DNA from: Nitratifractor sp.
GTDB taxonomy: Bacteria > Campylobacterota > Campylobacteria > Campylobacterales > Sulfurovaceae
DNA length: 64,000 bases
Direction: 5' to 3'
Assembly (NCBI GenBank): GCA_015488535.1
Contig: WFNP01000043.1
Coordinates: 1-64,000, forward strand
In this document: piece after piece, positions 42,901 through 53,013 of the stretch
Numbering within the stretch: the first letter of the stretch is position 1
Layout: each line of letters opens with the position of its first letter
The notes under the pieces: model-generated
Told to the model about the DNA's origin: nothing
What the model saw: only the letters and a program-made list of their open reading frames with translations
The model's database searches: none
Program-made: the position numbers and the translations under genes

Positions 42901-44100
42901 TTACATACCCGGTATTCTCGGTATTCTACCAAGCTTAGAGTTTCTACAATACCAACCCCAACCCTTTTTGAGCCAATGTCCGATGACTGGCATAGGTATC
43001 ATTTTGCCACCTTTATTATCTCTATATACAAACGCAGCACCATCTCCGCTATCCATTACACACAAGATATTAAGATGCTCAGAGTAACCTTTTCGCTCAT
43101 TACTCCCTTTTTCCATAGCTTCGATATTAAAGGCGGTATTTCTTGCCATTACTTCAGCAATATGCCCCTGCTTGGCTCTCCAATCCGGTCCTTCAAGAGC
43201 GGCACTGTCACCGATGGCAAATACTTTATACTTTTCACCCGTTTCATCATAATCATGTGATACTTCACAATAGTCATTTATCTTGATAAGTCCAGCTTCA
43301 TTTAGAGGTAAATCGGAGTTTTTAAATACGCTATGTCCATCTCCTGCCGGTATAAACATTGTAAAATCACTCTCCAATTTACTATCATCTTCAAATACAA
43401 TACCATCAGCCTCAAATCGTTTGATTTTCTTTCCAAAGTGTTTTTTAATATTTAACTTATTGAAAAATATATCCATCATTTTGAGTGCCTGTTCTCCCAT
43501 TCTCGCCCCAGGTGTTGCCATAGGAGCAAAGAATGTAAGCTCAAACTTGTCTCTGATTCCAAGCTTTTTGAGTCTATTATGAAGATTAAATATTACCTCA
43601 AATGCCGGACCTCCACGCACATTGCTTGGGTCTTTTGGATTGCCTCCAAATCCCATAGCAATTTTACCGCTACCTTTTGCTATCAATTTATCAATAGCTT
43701 TTTTTATTTCAACAGACTCTTCTGGTTTGCCACAAATTGATAAGAAATTTTCGGCTCCTTCGTGCTTGACTTTGCCACTACCAATGGCGATTATCAAATA
43801 TTCACATTCTAACTCAGAGTTTTCACAAACTATTCTATACTCTTTGGAGTGTATCTCTTTTACACTATCTTGAATAAATTTAAATCCATGGACCTTGCTT
43901 AGCTCTTCGAGTGATACAGATATATCACTAAACTCTATTTCACCTGTTGGCACCCAGATAGAGGTGGGGTATATATAAAAATAGTCTCTATCTGATACCA
44001 AGGTTACCTCAAAGCCACTTTTTCTCAAAAAGATGGCAGCTTCCAATCCTGCAAAACCACCACCAAGAATCAAAATTTTACTTTTGATAACCTTACTCAT
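42901..44100 (-). CDS. Sulfide:quinone reductase-like FAD oxidoreductase
   Basis: 399 residues. The FAD-binding N-terminus ILILGGGFAGLEAAIFLRKSG (near 8-28) and the second FAD contact KVFAIGDSAALEGPDWRAKQG (near 295) define a two-dinucleotide-fold flavoprotein. The C-terminus (SGDGAAFVYRD, PVIGHWLKKGWGWYCR) resembles SQR and type II NADH dehydrogenase relatives that sit on the membrane and reduce quinone. Several Cys residues exist (about 124 and 350 among them), but I cannot confirm the redox pair of SQR. It starts two bases after ccoG ends, in one operon, suggesting a respiratory role. Sulfide as substrate is an inference. Confidence 0.65.
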   Translation of the reverse strand: MSKVIKSKILILGGGFAGLEAAIFLRKSGFEVTLVSDRDYFYIYPTSIWVPTGEIEFSDISVSLEELSKVHGFKFIQDSVKEIHSKEYRIVCENSELECEYLIIAIGSGKVKHEGAENFLSICGKPEESVEIKKAIDKLIAKGSGKIAMGFGGNPKDPSNVRGGPAFEVIFNLHNRLKKLGIRDKFELTFFAPMATPGARMGEQALKMMDIFFNKLNIKKHFGKKIKRFEADGIVFEDDSKLESDFTMFIPAGDGHSVFKNSDLPLNEAGLIKINDYCEVSHDYDETGEKYKVFAIGDSAALEGPDWRAKQGHIAEVMARNTAFNIEAMEKGSNERKGYSEHLNILCVMDSGDGAAFVYRDNKGGKMIPMPVIGHWLKKGWGWYCRNSKLGRIPRIPGM

Positions 44101-44101
44101 T

Positions 44102-45577
44102 TTATTTTTTCACCTTGTTTTTAAGCTCTGTAACAGATGGATATACAAATACTGTCTTTCTAAATACACTGATTTTTTTAGGGTCATCTACTGCATAAGC
44201 ATGGATTGTGATTGGAATAGGTACATCTTTTGCTTCATTCTTAGCTAAGATATCTTTTGTTTCCAATACAACAATTTTCTTTTTCTTATATTCAGAAGCC
44301 AAATGGAATGCCTCTTTTGGTCTTACAATTTTGATTTTATCATTACCTTGAACCTCAAAGTAATATTTATGAGGCTTATTGTCTGTATTTTGGAAAAGGA
44401 ATACATAATCATTCTCTACTCTTCCATCTGGATAAATTTTGTAGAGTCTTGTAGTTTTATTCACATTTAGAAGCATATGCTCTTTTTTGCTTCCCATAAA
44501 GAACAACATTCCCAAAACTATTGCCAAAACTGTAAAGTATGCTATAACTTTTGGTCTTAGATATCTGGTTTTTCCTTCATGTCTGAGAGCTTCTCTTTCA
44601 CTTGACCACTGCACCAATGAAGGTCTGCCATAAGCTGCTTGAACCTCTGTACAGGCATCTACACACTCCAAACAGTTTATACACTCAAGCTGTAACCCTT
44701 TTCTAATGTCAATATGAGTAGGACAGACTGTTACACATTTTTCACAGGCGATACACTCTGCATCAGGATTTTTTTCTAATAACTCTTTTCGTTTATGCAC
44801 AGCCTTGTGTCTTTCATTACCTTCACCTTCATATATTTGACCACCTCTGATTGGGTCATATACCGCCATAATGGTATCATCATCATACAATACTGATTGC
44901 ACCCTGCTGTATGGGCAGATATATACACAAAAGTTCTCTTTGATAAATACAACATCAGCAATTAAAAAGAGTGCAACACCTATCCAAAAGCCCATCAAGA
45001 CTGTATGGTTTGACGGATCTTGAATATATTTGAAAAAATCTTCCGGTGGGACGAAATACCATAAAAAGTCAGCAGCTGCGATAAATGCCAAAATAGACCA
45101 TATAGCTATTGCTATAATCTTTTTGGTCATATTTTCTGGTTTGCTTAAATCAACCTCTTGCTGTTTATTTGAGATTCTTTTATATAGATGAAGAAGTTTA
45201 GTCTCAATCAAATCTCTGTAAAGGACTCTAAAGATTGTCTGCGGACATGCCCAACCGCACCATACTCTACCACCTACCGATGTAAGAGCAAAAATTCCAA
45301 GGAATAGTAGCATCAACAAAAACGGCATTAGATAAAGCTCTTGCATATCAAATCGAACAAAGAAGAAGTGTAACTGTTTATGGTCAAAGTTTAATAAGAA
45401 GAAGTGATTCCCATTTATTCTAATCCAAGGCAGTATCAATGATATGATTGATATTGCCACATACATCCAGTATCTTTTTATTCTATATGGTATCCAACCT
45501 TTAAGATACTCCTTTGCATTTACTTTTTTCTCTTTTGGTTTTTTCAGATTCTCATTTTCGAGCGTAGCTTCTTGCAT
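44102..45577 (-). CDS. ccoG: cbb3 oxidase accessory protein CcoG (RdxA/FixG)
   Basis: 491 residues. Integral membrane iron-sulfur protein needed for copper handling in cbb3 cytochrome oxidase assembly. Membrane helices at about 38-56, 78-98, 155-175 and 190-208; Cys motifs GRVWCGWACPQTIF near 105 and CVYICPYSRVQSVL near 217; two 4Fe-4S ferredoxin sites CIACEKCVTVCP (near 275) and CINCLECVDAC (near 295). The C-terminal periplasmic domain is IG-like. The ATG shares a base with the stop of the upstream regulator-like gene, so the two are coupled. Structural cbb3 genes are not in the window. Confidence 0.93.
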   Translation of the reverse strand: MQEATLENENLKKPKEKKVNAKEYLKGWIPYRIKRYWMYVAISIISLILPWIRINGNHFFLLNFDHKQLHFFFVRFDMQELYLMPFLLMLLFLGIFALTSVGGRVWCGWACPQTIFRVLYRDLIETKLLHLYKRISNKQQEVDLSKPENMTKKIIAIAIWSILAFIAAADFLWYFVPPEDFFKYIQDPSNHTVLMGFWIGVALFLIADVVFIKENFCVYICPYSRVQSVLYDDDTIMAVYDPIRGGQIYEGEGNERHKAVHKRKELLEKNPDAECIACEKCVTVCPTHIDIRKGLQLECINCLECVDACTEVQAAYGRPSLVQWSSEREALRHEGKTRYLRPKVIAYFTVLAIVLGMLFFMGSKKEHMLLNVNKTTRLYKIYPDGRVENDYVFLFQNTDNKPHKYYFEVQGNDKIKIVRPKEAFHLASEYKKKKIVVLETKDILAKNEAKDVPIPITIHAYAVDDPKKISVFRKTVFVYPSVTELKNKVKK

Positions 45578-46257
45578 TATTTTCCTTTCTGTATTGGTTT
45601 TAAATTGTTATCAAATGTGCAACTAAGTTGCATATCTTTTTGCTCTACGGTTTTAATTCTGTTCTTAGCTTCTTGTAGCCATGAATCATCAACTATCTTT
45701 TTTAGTTGCCTCGATTCGATATAGTCCTTTAAAGAGCTTCGGCTTATACCTAACTCTCTGGCCAAAGCACTTACACTTTTGCCATTTTTAAGTCCTTCCA
45801 GTATCTCAGAGAGATAAATATCAAACTTAGATGAGGATTTTCGTCCCTTCGGTCTGCCTACACGAGTGTCTGTTTTGCTCTTTTCTTCATCACTTTTGAG
45901 TTTCATAAGAATAGGCAATATTTCAGACAATCCTGTTTGGGCAGTAACCTCTATATGATTGATGGCGATATGGAGTGATATATCTCTGCTAAGCATACAA
46001 TTTATCACCATAATAGCCTCTTGCATATCATAGGATAAGACTTCTATTCTCTCAACTATGATAATATTACCACCGCTTAGAGAATGGATAAACTCTCTAA
46101 ATCGTCTCCTCTCTTCAAGTGGAAGCTTTGAATTTTCGAACTCTATCATCTCATCATCGAGGGTCAATCCTTTCTCTTTGGCATACGATATAATCGTAGC
46201 TCTTTGAGACAGAATTGAATCATTGCCCCAGAGCTGTCTCATGACTGCATATGTCAA
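45577..46257 (-). CDS. Resolvase-fold protein with lost catalytic residues, HTH
   Basis: 226 residues. Its layout matches small serine recombinases: an N-terminal domain (1-130), a basic GRPKGRKSSSKF hinge near 138 and an HTH SVSALARELGISRSSLKDYI near 163-182. The key residues are missing. Where resolvases have Y-x-R-V-S with the nucleophile serine, it has YAVMRQLWGNDS; where they have LDRLSRS, it has IEVLSYD. It is therefore probably a DNA-binding regulator and not a recombinase. It starts at TTG 46257 with GGAGTGAGGA upstream, and is translationally coupled to ccoG, so it may control that operon. Confidence 0.6.
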   Translation of the reverse strand: MTYAVMRQLWGNDSILSQRATIISYAKEKGLTLDDEMIEFENSKLPLEERRRFREFIHSLSGGNIIIVERIEVLSYDMQEAIMVINCMLSRDISLHIAINHIEVTAQTGLSEILPILMKLKSDEEKSKTDTRVGRPKGRKSSSKFDIYLSEILEGLKNGKSVSALARELGISRSSLKDYIESRQLKKIVDDSWLQEAKNRIKTVEQKDMQLSCTFDNNLKPIQKGK

Positions 46258-46400
46258 TCCTCACTCCTTTCAATTAATCCCTCACGCAAAATATTATCTT
46301 TAAAATGGTGAAATAATTCTTAAAATGTTATATTTTTTCGTCATTTACTCGTTTTTCCGTCAAATTTTTGTGCTAAAATTGCACTACAAAGGAGAAAATA

Positions 46401-46874
46401 ATGAAATTAACACATCTTGATGAGCAAGATAAACCCAAAATGGTAGATGTATCAAGTAAAGATGAAACCATTAGAACAGCAACTGCAAGTGGAATAATTC
46501 AAATGAGCCGTGATGCTTATGAGGCAGTCATAGAAAACAGAGCCAAAAAGGGACCAGTGCTTCAAACAGCAGTAATTGCGGCTATTCAAGGCACTAAAAG
46601 AACTCCGGAGTTAATCCCTATGTGCCATCCATTGATGCTTAGTTCTGTAAAAACCGATATAGAGGAGTTACCGGAGTTACCGGGATTTAAACTATTTGTT
46701 ACAGCCAAACTTACAGGCAAAACCGGTGTAGAGATGGAGGCACTCACTGGTGTGAGTATAGGGCTTTTGACAATATATGATATGTTAAAAGCCATAGATA
46801 AGGCTATGGTAATAAAAGATATTCAACTTGAATCCAAAACAGGAGGTAAAAGCGGTGATTTTAGACGAGAATAA
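46401..46874 (+). CDS. moaC: Cyclic pyranopterin monophosphate synthase
   Basis: 157 residues. With MoaA it turns GTP into cyclic pyranopterin monophosphate, the first step of molybdenum cofactor synthesis. Signatures: [18 protein letters not shown] near 13, [17 protein letters not shown] near 73 and [28 protein letters not shown] with the catalytic Lys nearby. The promoter region faces the divergent regulator gene; GCTAAAATTGC holds a -10-like box. Molybdoenzymes (nitrate reductase, polysulfide reductase) are common in this group. Confidence 0.96.
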
Positions 46875-50376: not shown

Positions 50377-53013
50377 ATGTTAAAGAAAATATTTTTGGCT
50401 ATATCGGCTTTTTCTATGCTGTTTGCGACAATACCTACACAAGAGAGTGTGACCAAACTCTATATAGCTACATTTGACAGAGCTCCTGACCATAACGGAT
50501 TATTGTATTGGGTATATGATTCAGGATTGAGTATAGAAGGAATTGCTAAAAGTTTTTTTGATCAGCCTGAAACAAAAGCTCTTTATGGAGATAAAGTTTC
50601 CAATTATGATGAGTTTATAGACAGTGTATATACTCATCTTTTCAAAAGAGAGCCTGACAGTGCCGGTAAAGAGTATTGGAAAGAGGAGTTGTCAAATAAA
50701 AGAGTTCCAGTATCTACCTTTATATTGGCTGCGATGAATGGTGCTTTGGGTAAAGATGCAAATATTTTGAAAAATAAAACAACTGTAGGATTGATTTTGG
50801 CAAATCAAAAAGATTTTAATGAAACAGTGGCAAAAGAAGCAATGAAAGAGGTTACTGATGACCCCCAATCTATTCAAAAGGTAATTACAAAGGTGAAGCC
50901 TCTAATAAAAGAAGATAACATTGATGATATAAATAATACAATTATTACTAATAGTAAAAATCTAAAAGTATCTATTATCAGTAAAAATGATTGGAGTAGT
51001 GGATTTTGTAATGATATAAATATTACAAATACAGGCTCTTCACCTGTAATATGGAAAGTAACTTTTGACAGTGGAGGAGAAATATATAACTCCTGGAGTG
51101 CAGATTTTGATACTAGTGAGGCTCACAAAACAACAATTACCGGATTGGATTGGAACAAAGAGTTAAAAGCAGGGGAGACTACAACAGTAGGATACTGTGC
51201 CAAGAAAGATTTTGCCTCCATGCCTGAAGCGACTGTCGGTGACGGGCTGGAGTTGGATTCCAAACTCATCTCCAAATGGGATACAGGCTTTTGTAGAGAA
51301 GTAACTGTAAAAAATATATCAGACAAAGAGATTGTATGGAGTGTGGATATCAATGCCCAAGCTCCTGTATATACTCTATGGAGTGCATTATATACTCAAG
51401 ACAAAGATACTAATATATTGCATGTCAAAGGACTTGAGTGGAATAAGGTACTAAAGCCTGATGCTTCTACAAAATTTGGATTTTGTATAAATACAAAAAC
51501 AGATGATATCTCAACACAAGATACTCAAGACAATAATACCCATACTGATAATAGTGATACTTCAAAAGATAATGATGATAACAATATTTCAACGAATAAA
51601 GATGAGAGTAACAGTAATACTGAAATATCTGATAATAGTGATAATACCAAACCTGCTGACAGTGACATACCTACAAATAACAAAACAAGTGGATTTGGAA
51701 GCAAAGAGTATGAAGAGGCACTGAGACTCTCTTACCAATTTTATGAAGCCCAAAGAGCAGTGGGACCATTTCCCGTAGTTACATGGAGAAAAGCAGGACC
51801 AAAAGATGATGGCAAAGATGTAGGAGCAGACCTCTCAAAAGGTTGGTATGATGCAGGGGATACTGTGAAATTCAATCTGCCTATGGCTTACTCTACAAGT
51901 ATATTGCAGATGGGTATCTTAGAGTTTGAAGATGCTTACAAAGAGAGCAATTTGTATGATTATGCAATATCTCAGATTAAATATACACTGGATTACTTTC
52001 TAAATGCCTATAATCCGGGCAGTGATTTAAACAGTCCGGCTGATGATAAAATATATTATCAGGTAGCAGACCCAAATGCTGACCACCGTTTTTGGGGACC
52101 ACCACAGGATATGGATATGCCAAGACCTACATATACCTGTGATGCTTCCAACAGATGTAGTGAAGTAGCAGGTGAAATGAGTGCGGCACTCGCCGGAGGA
52201 TATCTTATATTCAAAGATACTAATAGGGCTTATGCTCAAAAACTGCTCGATACAGCCAAAAGATTATATAAATTTGCTACCACGTATGAAGGAAACAATG
52301 GTTATACAGCAGCCAATGGTTTCTATTCATCATTTAGTGGATACAATGACGAACTGGCATGGGCTGCAACCTGGCTATATAAGGCTACAGAAGATGAGAA
52401 ATATCTAAGTGATGCTAAAAAATATTTTGATAAAACAAATCCGTCTGGTTGGGCTTTGACCTGGGATAATCCGGGTAATGCAAACAGTGTATTGCTGTAT
52501 GAGCTTACAGGAGACAGAAAATATGCCTCTGAAGCAGAACAAAATATTGACAATGCCATGCATAAGCAAAAAAGAACAAAAGGCGGATTGGTATTTTATG
52601 ATGCATGGGGTTCACTCAGATATGCTGCAAATGAAGCATTTGTAGCACTCTCTTATGCCAAATTATTACCAGATGGCAATAGTAAGAAAAAAGAGTATAT
52701 AGATTTTGCCAAAAGTCAGATAGATTATATACTCGGAGACAATCCAAGAAAAAGCTCTTATATTGTAGGTTATGGTCCAAATCATCCGATAAATCCGCAC
52801 CACAGAGCTGCACATGATTCAAAAGAGCATAATATAGATACACCAAAAGATAATAGATATATTTTATATGGAGCATTGGTGGGTGGTCCAAAGAGTGCTG
52901 ATGATTTTGATTACAAAGATGACAGACACGACTATGAGGCTAATGAGGTAGCCTGTGACTATAATGCCGGATACAGTGGAGCTTTGGCAGGGCTTATTGA
53001 ATTGGCTCAATAA
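50377..53013 (+). CDS. Secreted GH9 cellulase with DUF4214 and two CBM2-like domains
   Basis: 878 residues. Domains: signal peptide (1-18); DUF4214-like region (about 20-130, with YIATFDRAPDHNGLLYWV and VYTHLFKREPDSAGKEYW); two CBM2-like cellulose-binding domains (about 196-276 and 292-374), each with NDW/KWD-type and NSW/TLW tryptophans and a first/last Cys pair; an Asp/Asn/Ser/Thr-rich linker (about 375-437); and a GH9 catalytic domain (440-878). GH9 residues seen: DAGD at 492-495 (base), NPHHRAAHD (substrate His) and the acid Glu near 857 in NEVACDYNAGYSGALA. It should hydrolyse internal beta-1,4-glucan bonds outside the cell. Single-gene unit beside a tRNA cluster; no other cellulolytic gene nearby. 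Transfer from another phylum is likely. Confidence 0.88.
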   Translation: MLKKIFLAISAFSMLFATIPTQESVTKLYIATFDRAPDHNGLLYWVYDSGLSIEGIAKSFFDQPETKALYGDKVSNYDEFIDSVYTHLFKREPDSAGKEYWKEELSNKRVPVSTFILAAMNGALGKDANILKNKTTVGLILANQKDFNETVAKEAMKEVTDDPQSIQKVITKVKPLIKEDNIDDINNTIITNSKNLKVSIISKNDWSSGFCNDINITNTGSSPVIWKVTFDSGGEIYNSWSADFDTSEAHKTTITGLDWNKELKAGETTTVGYCAKKDFASMPEATVGDGLELDSKLISKWDTGFCREVTVKNISDKEIVWSVDINAQAPVYTLWSALYTQDKDTNILHVKGLEWNKVLKPDASTKFGFCINTKTDDISTQDTQDNNTHTDNSDTSKDNDDNNISTNKDESNSNTEISDNSDNTKPADSDIPTNNKTSGFGSKEYEEALRLSYQFYEAQRAVGPFPVVTWRKAGPKDDGKDVGADLSKGWYDAGDTVKFNLPMAYSTSILQMGILEFEDAYKESNLYDYAISQIKYTLDYFLNAYNPGSDLNSPADDKIYYQVADPNADHRFWGPPQDMDMPRPTYTCDASNRCSEVAGEMSAALAGGYLIFKDTNRAYAQKLLDTAKRLYKFATTYEGNNGYTAANGFYSSFSGYNDELAWAATWLYKATEDEKYLSDAKKYFDKTNPSGWALTWDNPGNANSVLLYELTGDRKYASEAEQNIDNAMHKQKRTKGGLVFYDAWGSLRYAANEAFVALSYAKLLPDGNSKKKEYIDFAKSQIDYILGDNPRKSSYIVGYGPNHPINPHHRAAHDSKEHNIDTPKDNRYILYGALVGGPKSADDFDYKDDRHDYEANEVACDYNAGYSGALAGLIELAQ

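Follow-up and report, generated by a model that had tools for sequence, protein, structure and literature searches.

A Catalytically Dead Serine Recombinase Homologue as a Putative Regulator of the ccoG Operon in Campylobacterota

Could a serine recombinase that has given up catalysis live on as a dedicated transcription factor? Here, we describe a protein encoded directly upstream of ccoG in a 64,000-nucleotide stretch of a Nitratifractor sp. contig (WFNP01000043.1, positions 1 to 64,000; hereafter the window), which on comparative evidence is probably such a case. That is, a dead small serine recombinase of the invertase/resolvase type would have been exapted as a transcription factor, a dimer of which binds an inverted repeat, autorepresses the ccoG operon and is tuned by cysteines. 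The features read from the sequences themselves are the homology, the loss of catalytic residues, the linkage to ccoG, the repeat, the absence of the repeat where the gene is absent, its copies in trans and the cysteines; from these we infer physical binding, repression rather than activation, the dimer, cysteine sensing and the identity of the signal. The promoter inverted repeat of 38–40 bp is new in this analysis.

The ccoG Locus in the Window

On the minus strand of the window, the regulator gene is followed by ccoG and then by the gene of an SQR-like flavoprotein, while moaC diverges upstream (Table 1). The open reading frame that the initial annotation had placed here without giving a strand is a real one, with a TTG start behind an AGGAG site, and base 45577 is indeed common to its TAA stop and the ATG of ccoG, a one-base overlap. 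The ccoG product scores 498.7 bits against TIGR02745 (cut-off 316.7), and the window's genome carries a single copy of the regulator. Passages of PMC8475189 and PMC8267372 describe CcoG, after Marckmann et al. (2019), as a cupric reductase of the membrane that serves the assembly of cbb3 oxidase.

Table 1. Features of the regulator locus, in coordinates of the window
Feature	Position	Strand	Remarks
Proposed regulator, catalytically dead serine recombinase homologue	45577..46257	minus	226 aa, TTG start at 46257
Parts of the regulator protein	residues: core ~1-117, linker 118-133, GRPKG hinge 134-138, SKFD 143-146, HTH ~162-183, Cys87, Cys213
AGGAG ribosome-binding site of the regulator	46264..46268	minus	read from the sequence; AGGAG-like site before most orthologues
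Candidate operator, 38-bp inverted repeat TGACGAAAAAA...TTATTTCACCA	46306..46343	minus	sole pattern match in the window's genome
Additional upstream TGACG half-site	46358..46362	minus	19 bp from the left arm of the operator
ccoG, cbb3 oxidase assembly factor / cupric reductase	44102..45577	minus	491 aa; TIGR02745
SQR-like pyridine-nucleotide flavoprotein	42901..44100	minus	399 aa; operon gene after ccoG; homologue carries its own operator in family f16
moaC	46401..46874	plus	divergent neighbour; intergenic region shared with the operator

Elsewhere in the window, an 878-aa protein (50377-53013, plus strand) combines a glycosyl hydrolase family 9 domain with CBM2 cellulose-binding domains and DUF4214, which in our view is unexpected in a Sulfurovaceae-like genome.

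Recombinase Homology and Loss of the Active Site

The N-terminal part of the protein matches the Pfam Resolvase model PF00239 with 26.3 bits (cut-off 23.3); the model is also matched by 62 of the 63 aligned orthologues. The resolvase HTH_7 model is matched at E 0.001 or less by 43 of the same 63, with the window protein alone at 18.7 bits, under the cut-off of 23.8. The nearest NCBIfam model is that of the Mpi invertase (PRK13413; 38.5 bits, far below the cut-off of 272), and among PDB structures a profile of the 63 relatives matches Sin (E 6e-10) and also gamma-delta resolvase. Across the orthologues, conservation is strongest in the near-invariant basic hinge GRPKG and in the HTH, which bears out the resolvase layout described by the initial annotation. 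The structure prediction against resolvases proposed there as a check points the same way. The AlphaFold2 model, built from six sequences, is moderate (pLDDT 69.6, pTM 0.50), but in Foldseek it is matched best by serine recombinases (32 hits with E no higher than 0.001, those of Tn3, Sin and gamma-delta on top), and VIA superposes it on a resolvase-family recombinase with Z 12.1 over 105 residues (rmsd 2.7). By these comparisons, the protein is a member of the serine recombinase superfamily by descent, having its N-terminal domain and an HTH after a basic hinge. The stretch from core to hinge falls, as judged by eye, some 20 residues short of that in invertase-type relatives.

For the active site, 97 orthologues were compared with 16 ordinary recombinase-like proteins that came up in the same searches. 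The profile alignment pairs YARVSS of Sin with YLRQLS of the family, which puts the nucleophile position at residue 9. This residue is Leu in the window protein, and Ser occupies the position in 0/97 orthologues vs 14/16 ordinary recombinases. The missing nucleophile asserted in the initial annotation is therefore upheld, as none appears after realignment; Ser at the neighbouring position 10 is found in 29/97 and is not conserved. Arg at the position of Arg68 is likewise found in 0/97 vs 13/16, and that of Arg71, which is present in all 16 ordinary recombinases, is mostly lost in the orthologues (Tyr in the window protein). The claim that the active-site Arg residues are gone was too broad, since R7, which we take to be the equivalent of Arg8 (gamma-delta numbering), is retained in 89/97, and Arg at R50, the probable Arg45 position, in 97/97. 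The Arg45 equivalence was dropped as evidence because the joint alignment with the ordinary recombinases is inconsistent at that column. As far as the alignment goes, neither the nucleophile serine nor the full Arg8/Arg68/Arg71 set that marks a functional serine recombinase is present.

A second kind of recombinase-like protein with a degraded active site was found in family f8 (families and genera are labelled by numbers, such as f1 and g1), at L079:3983-4615(-), L093:3950-4585(+) and L094:3983-4609(-). Here, the Arg68 position is Val and Arg71 is kept, while the Ser is absent in L079 and L094 and present in L093. The gene stands just before genes read by eye as rplI, hslV and hslU in L079 and L093, and elsewhere in L094; these proteins are possibly an independent exaptation.

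Distribution and Linkage to ccoG

Search scores are bimodal, with orthologues at 165 bits or more and other proteins under 80. By our count of rows, orthologues occur in 73/149 relatives and in 64/298 genomes drawn across the phylum, and the 97 examined comprise all 73 from the relatives and 24 of 34 additional ones. The related loci that were identified belong to Nitratifractor and Campylobacteraceae MAGs, i.e., to the Campylobacterota. The genome survey of ccoG linkage suggested with the initial annotation was positive: the regulator is directly upstream of ccoG in 94/97 orthologues, with ccoG directly downstream on the same strand in 71/73 of the relatives (as a decayed copy in G127) and 23/24 of the additional set, the 24th of which sits at a contig end. 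The two exceptions among the relatives are G105 and G136 (family f17), in both of which ccoG is elsewhere. Judging from these searches, the regulator is no local oddity: it forms an order-wide orthologous group with one copy per genome in many families.

Regulator and CcoG distances correlate (r 0.77, n 91; the maximum of 1000 permutations is 0.12), in part because of shared phylogeny. In the tree, the 28 sampled orthologues lie on one side of a branch with 100/99 support and the 16 other recombinase-like proteins on the opposite side, and the sampled rows of f16, f4, f1, f6 and f20 cluster largely by family, as vertical descent would give. Two observations count against a regulator of ccoG. 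One is that ccoG is distributed more widely (142/149 relatives match the model, 128 of them over the cut-off), and many genomes carry it with no regulator. The other is that in G127 the regulator stays intact though the operon genes have decayed.

At this G127 locus (L150:3112-5904), the intact regulator and operator precede a ccoG and a flavoprotein gene that have both decayed, and an intact ccoG lies elsewhere. In G136 of f17 (L074:3965-6007), the regulator homologue is convergent with SCO1/SenC and PCu(A)C copper chaperone genes. Open frames of 707-720 aa in G300, G381 and G058 looked like fusions of regulator and CcoG, a candidate rejected on the DNA, which has an in-frame stop between the genes. 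A mobile element was also rejected for this clade: tblastn returned two plasmid records, 26-31% identical and annotated as recombinases, and no phage. The single PHROG match is a 'DNA invertase'.

Two cysteines are near-invariant in the orthologues, Cys87 (95/97) and Cys213 (94/97), and the equivalents of neither occur in any of the 16 other recombinase-like proteins. G105 and G136, the genomes with the regulator unlinked from ccoG, lack the two of them, and G277 is without Cys213. This pattern suggests that the cysteines form a thiol switch or bind a metal. Since CcoG is a cupric reductase aiding cbb3 activity, copper, redox or sulfur are plausible signals; the signal is probably copper, oxygen/redox state or reactive sulfur, with none of these favoured. 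The repeat described below also lies beside the cysteine-less genes of G105 and G136, a further point against the proposed reading, so the putative binding would be independent of the cysteines.

A Candidate Operator at the Regulator Promoter

The promoters of the orthologues carry an inverted repeat, TGACGAAAA...TTTTCRTCA, which measures 38–40 bp end to end in 93/97. Its outer ends are TGACG on the left and mostly CATCA, CGTCA or CGCCA on the right. A repeat score of 20 or more is reached by 92/97 promoters vs 2.8% of dinucleotide shuffles vs 0/97 gene-body stretches. The score was devised after the sequences were seen, so that the shuffle figure is a guide and no blind test, and the unlinked targets provide the independent check. 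The arms co-vary, as in TGGCG...CGCCA (L063, L068, L129) and AGACG...TCGTCT (L132). At 70/95 sites, the two arms enclose a -35 box and a -10 box follows past the right arm; the spacer is 17-18 in 69 of the 70. Extra upstream TGACG half-sites accompany 43/95 sites, mostly 19-21 or 40-41 bp away, i.e., in steps of about two helical turns.

The HTH varies along with the repeat. Residues 164 and 177 change with the right-arm sequence; for example, Lys177 is replaced by Arg in 9/13 with TGGCG, 2/26 with TGACG and 0/51 with TGATG, a covariation that phylogeny alone could cause. For the window itself, two points count against the regulator reading: the operator is imperfect (its right arm reads CACCA), and the search of the minus strand gave no consensus promoter next to the repeat. 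Across the orthologues, a putative operator overlaps the regulator's own promoter beyond chance, as would be expected of an autoregulatory repressor.

Unlinked Sites and Co-occurrence with the Regulator

The flavoprotein gene of family f16 lies apart from ccoG, and the repeat precedes this unlinked gene in 7/10 genomes with the regulator (shuffle p 0.004 or less) and in 0/3 without it (G135, G348, G126). A near-perfect repeat is also found before an operon that encodes a 69-aa protein together with an M48 peptidase, in 13/18 f16 genomes with the regulator and 0/2 without. The 69-aa protein heading this operon (L136:2775-2984(-) and other f16 genomes) has by eye a likely single membrane helix, and Pfam and NCBIfam scans gave no match for it. 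A strict pattern scan found zero sites in G135 and G348, and at least one site in most of their congeners that have the regulator. Counting against the regulator reading are the f16 genomes that have the gene and lack a repeat, at the flavoprotein gene (G121, G377, G254; 3/10) or at the M48 operon (5/18), as well as the strict pattern, for which no site was found in G361, G148 or G121 (the last of another genus), all with the regulator. Other repeat sites were seen close to a rhodanese pair in G300 and G381 and, in G104, ahead of a DUF6858 gene.

Promoters of ccoG that have no adjacent regulator complete the comparison. Among 33 of them, comprising a set of 15 (best 19.8) and the 18 testable of 20 fetched (best 19.6), none reaches a repeat score of 20. 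Nine genomes of genus g2 (8/8 testable and L107) have kept moaC next to ccoG, with the regulator gone and no repeat found, and G056 of genus g3 looks like a separate loss of the regulator. Sites and regulator would therefore appear to be present or absent together, as an autoregulatory repressor and its operator would be.

A wider regulon outside f16 was considered and rejected. Apart from the regulator's own promoter, pattern hits in f20, f18 and most of f1 are about as many as with a reversed-pattern control; G092 (f4) has five hits per strand vs 0 in the control, of which those away from ccoG are not clearly promoter sites. Because most families lack trans sites above the control, the regulator would there serve only itself and its operon. 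The initial annotation had named a cbb3-assembly operon as the target; in f16 the apparent target set is wider. Its broader idea, a recombinase fold reused to regulate that operon, gains comparative support from the linkage in 94/97, the promoter repeat and the co-absence.

Proposed Mechanism and Alternative Explanations

On the proposed mechanism, an ancestral small serine recombinase would have lost catalysis, shortened the stretch from core to hinge and become a DNA-binding transcription factor. A dimer would occupy both arms of the 38–40 bp inverted repeat with the recombinase cores mid-site, the HTH reading the outer TGACG and the GRPKG hinge lying over the inner A-tract, as in resolvases. 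Because the repeat extends over the promoter and mostly has its right arm between -35 and -10, the bound protein should shut out RNA polymerase and so repress the regulator gene, ccoG and often the flavoprotein gene, and in f16 it would also act in trans on further promoters. Cys87 in the recombinase core and Cys213 in the C-terminal tail would then probably loosen or retune the hold on the DNA in response to a thiol-reactive signal.

The same repeat could instead be bound by a protein that activates, or that represses itself and activates other targets, e.g., by reshaping the promoter. Spacer-binding activators such as MerR bind between -35 and -10, just where the right arm lies, but MerR promoters have longer spacers, whereas spacers of 17-18 bp with good boxes are found at 70/95 sites; this suggests a promoter that is strong alone and needs restraint, and we hold activation to be unlikely. 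It is less probable still that the repeat is the site of another regulator and the dead recombinase a partner of CcoG in assembly or copper handling that merely lies beside it. The ccoG linkage would suit a physical partner and the two cysteines could bind copper; however, the HTH and hinge are the best-conserved parts, the repeat is missing wherever the gene is missing, unlinked targets included, and the symmetry of the operator, with A-tracts inside TGACG, suits a recombinase-type DNA-binding domain.

Two further explanations keep the protein closer to its ancestors. An active, divergent recombinase with another nucleophile, inverting or cutting at the repeat as in phase variation, might be suspected from the recombinase-like predicted fold and the retained Arg8 equivalent and Arg50. 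Yet the Ser and Arg68 equivalents are missing in 97/97, the Ser at position 10 is too sporadic, the core-to-hinge stretch is short, and a single matching site in the window's genome means no partner site, so we regard this as very improbable. Even harder to credit is a decaying remnant of a mobile element beside ccoG by chance, which the loss of the catalytic residues would fit. The conservation already refutes it: the motif residues are 100% conserved in 97 orthologues, the 28 sampled for the tree fall on one side of it with 100/99 support, and 94/97 keep the ccoG linkage, with no phage match and two distant plasmid matches only. An autorepressor derived from a dead recombinase thus remains our preferred reading, which can be put to a direct test through the 38–40 bp operator and the two cysteines.

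Comparison with Known Systems

Searches of an open-licence full-text library gave no paper linking ccoG with a serine recombinase, and none of the papers found, PMC8987985 included, is on this protein. In C. jejuni, ccoG, ccoI and ccoS are scattered, and the CcoG passages of PMC8475189 and PMC8267372 name no regulator of this kind. It is likely that genes of this kind are annotated as 'recombinase family protein' and hence hidden. Resolvases that double as repressors are already known. If the proposal is true, catalysis would here have been given up for a dedicated, vertically inherited chromosomal transcription factor, a route from a mobile-element enzyme to a regulator, and the missing regulator of copper supply to the high-affinity cbb3 oxidase of these microaerophiles would have been found. 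The full claim seems to us evenly balanced between right and wrong: that this is the founding member of a transcription factor family from a dead serine recombinase, retained in many families of a single order, with a remodelled recombinase-type operator about one turn longer and a two-cysteine switch by which copper, redox or sulfur controls CcoG and the flavoprotein, as well as a small unlinked regulon in one of the families.

With Mpi-type DNA invertases (PRK13413), Sin and the Tn3/gamma-delta resolvases, the regulator shares the core fold, the GRPKG hinge and the C-terminal HTH, and its site resembles theirs in being an inverted repeat with an outer box and an inner A/T tract. Unlike small serine recombinases, it is without the nucleophile, Arg68 and Arg71, has the shorter core-to-hinge stretch and two near-invariant cysteines, and is fixed in the chromosome before ccoG. 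Crossover sites of small serine recombinases are 26-28 bp, compared with 38–40 bp here; the outer ends are about one turn farther apart, and the helical phase would therefore stay.

Vaccinia F16, a predicted inactive serine recombinase targeted to the nucleolus according to the parts of PMC11980589 that treat it, is likewise a recombinase homologue that was kept though its catalysis is predicted to be lost; it is viral and nucleolar, and those parts state no operator or regulated operon. TnpR of Tn3, as sections of PMC7157771 describe, binds at sites that contain its promoter and acts as a repressor of itself and a neighbour, and in this respect it resembles the regulator proposed here, also a serine recombinase-type protein and putative autorepressor of itself and the neighbouring gene. 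However, TnpR is the active resolvase of a transposon, whereas in the Campylobacterota protein catalysis appears to be lost and the gene stands before a respiratory gene.
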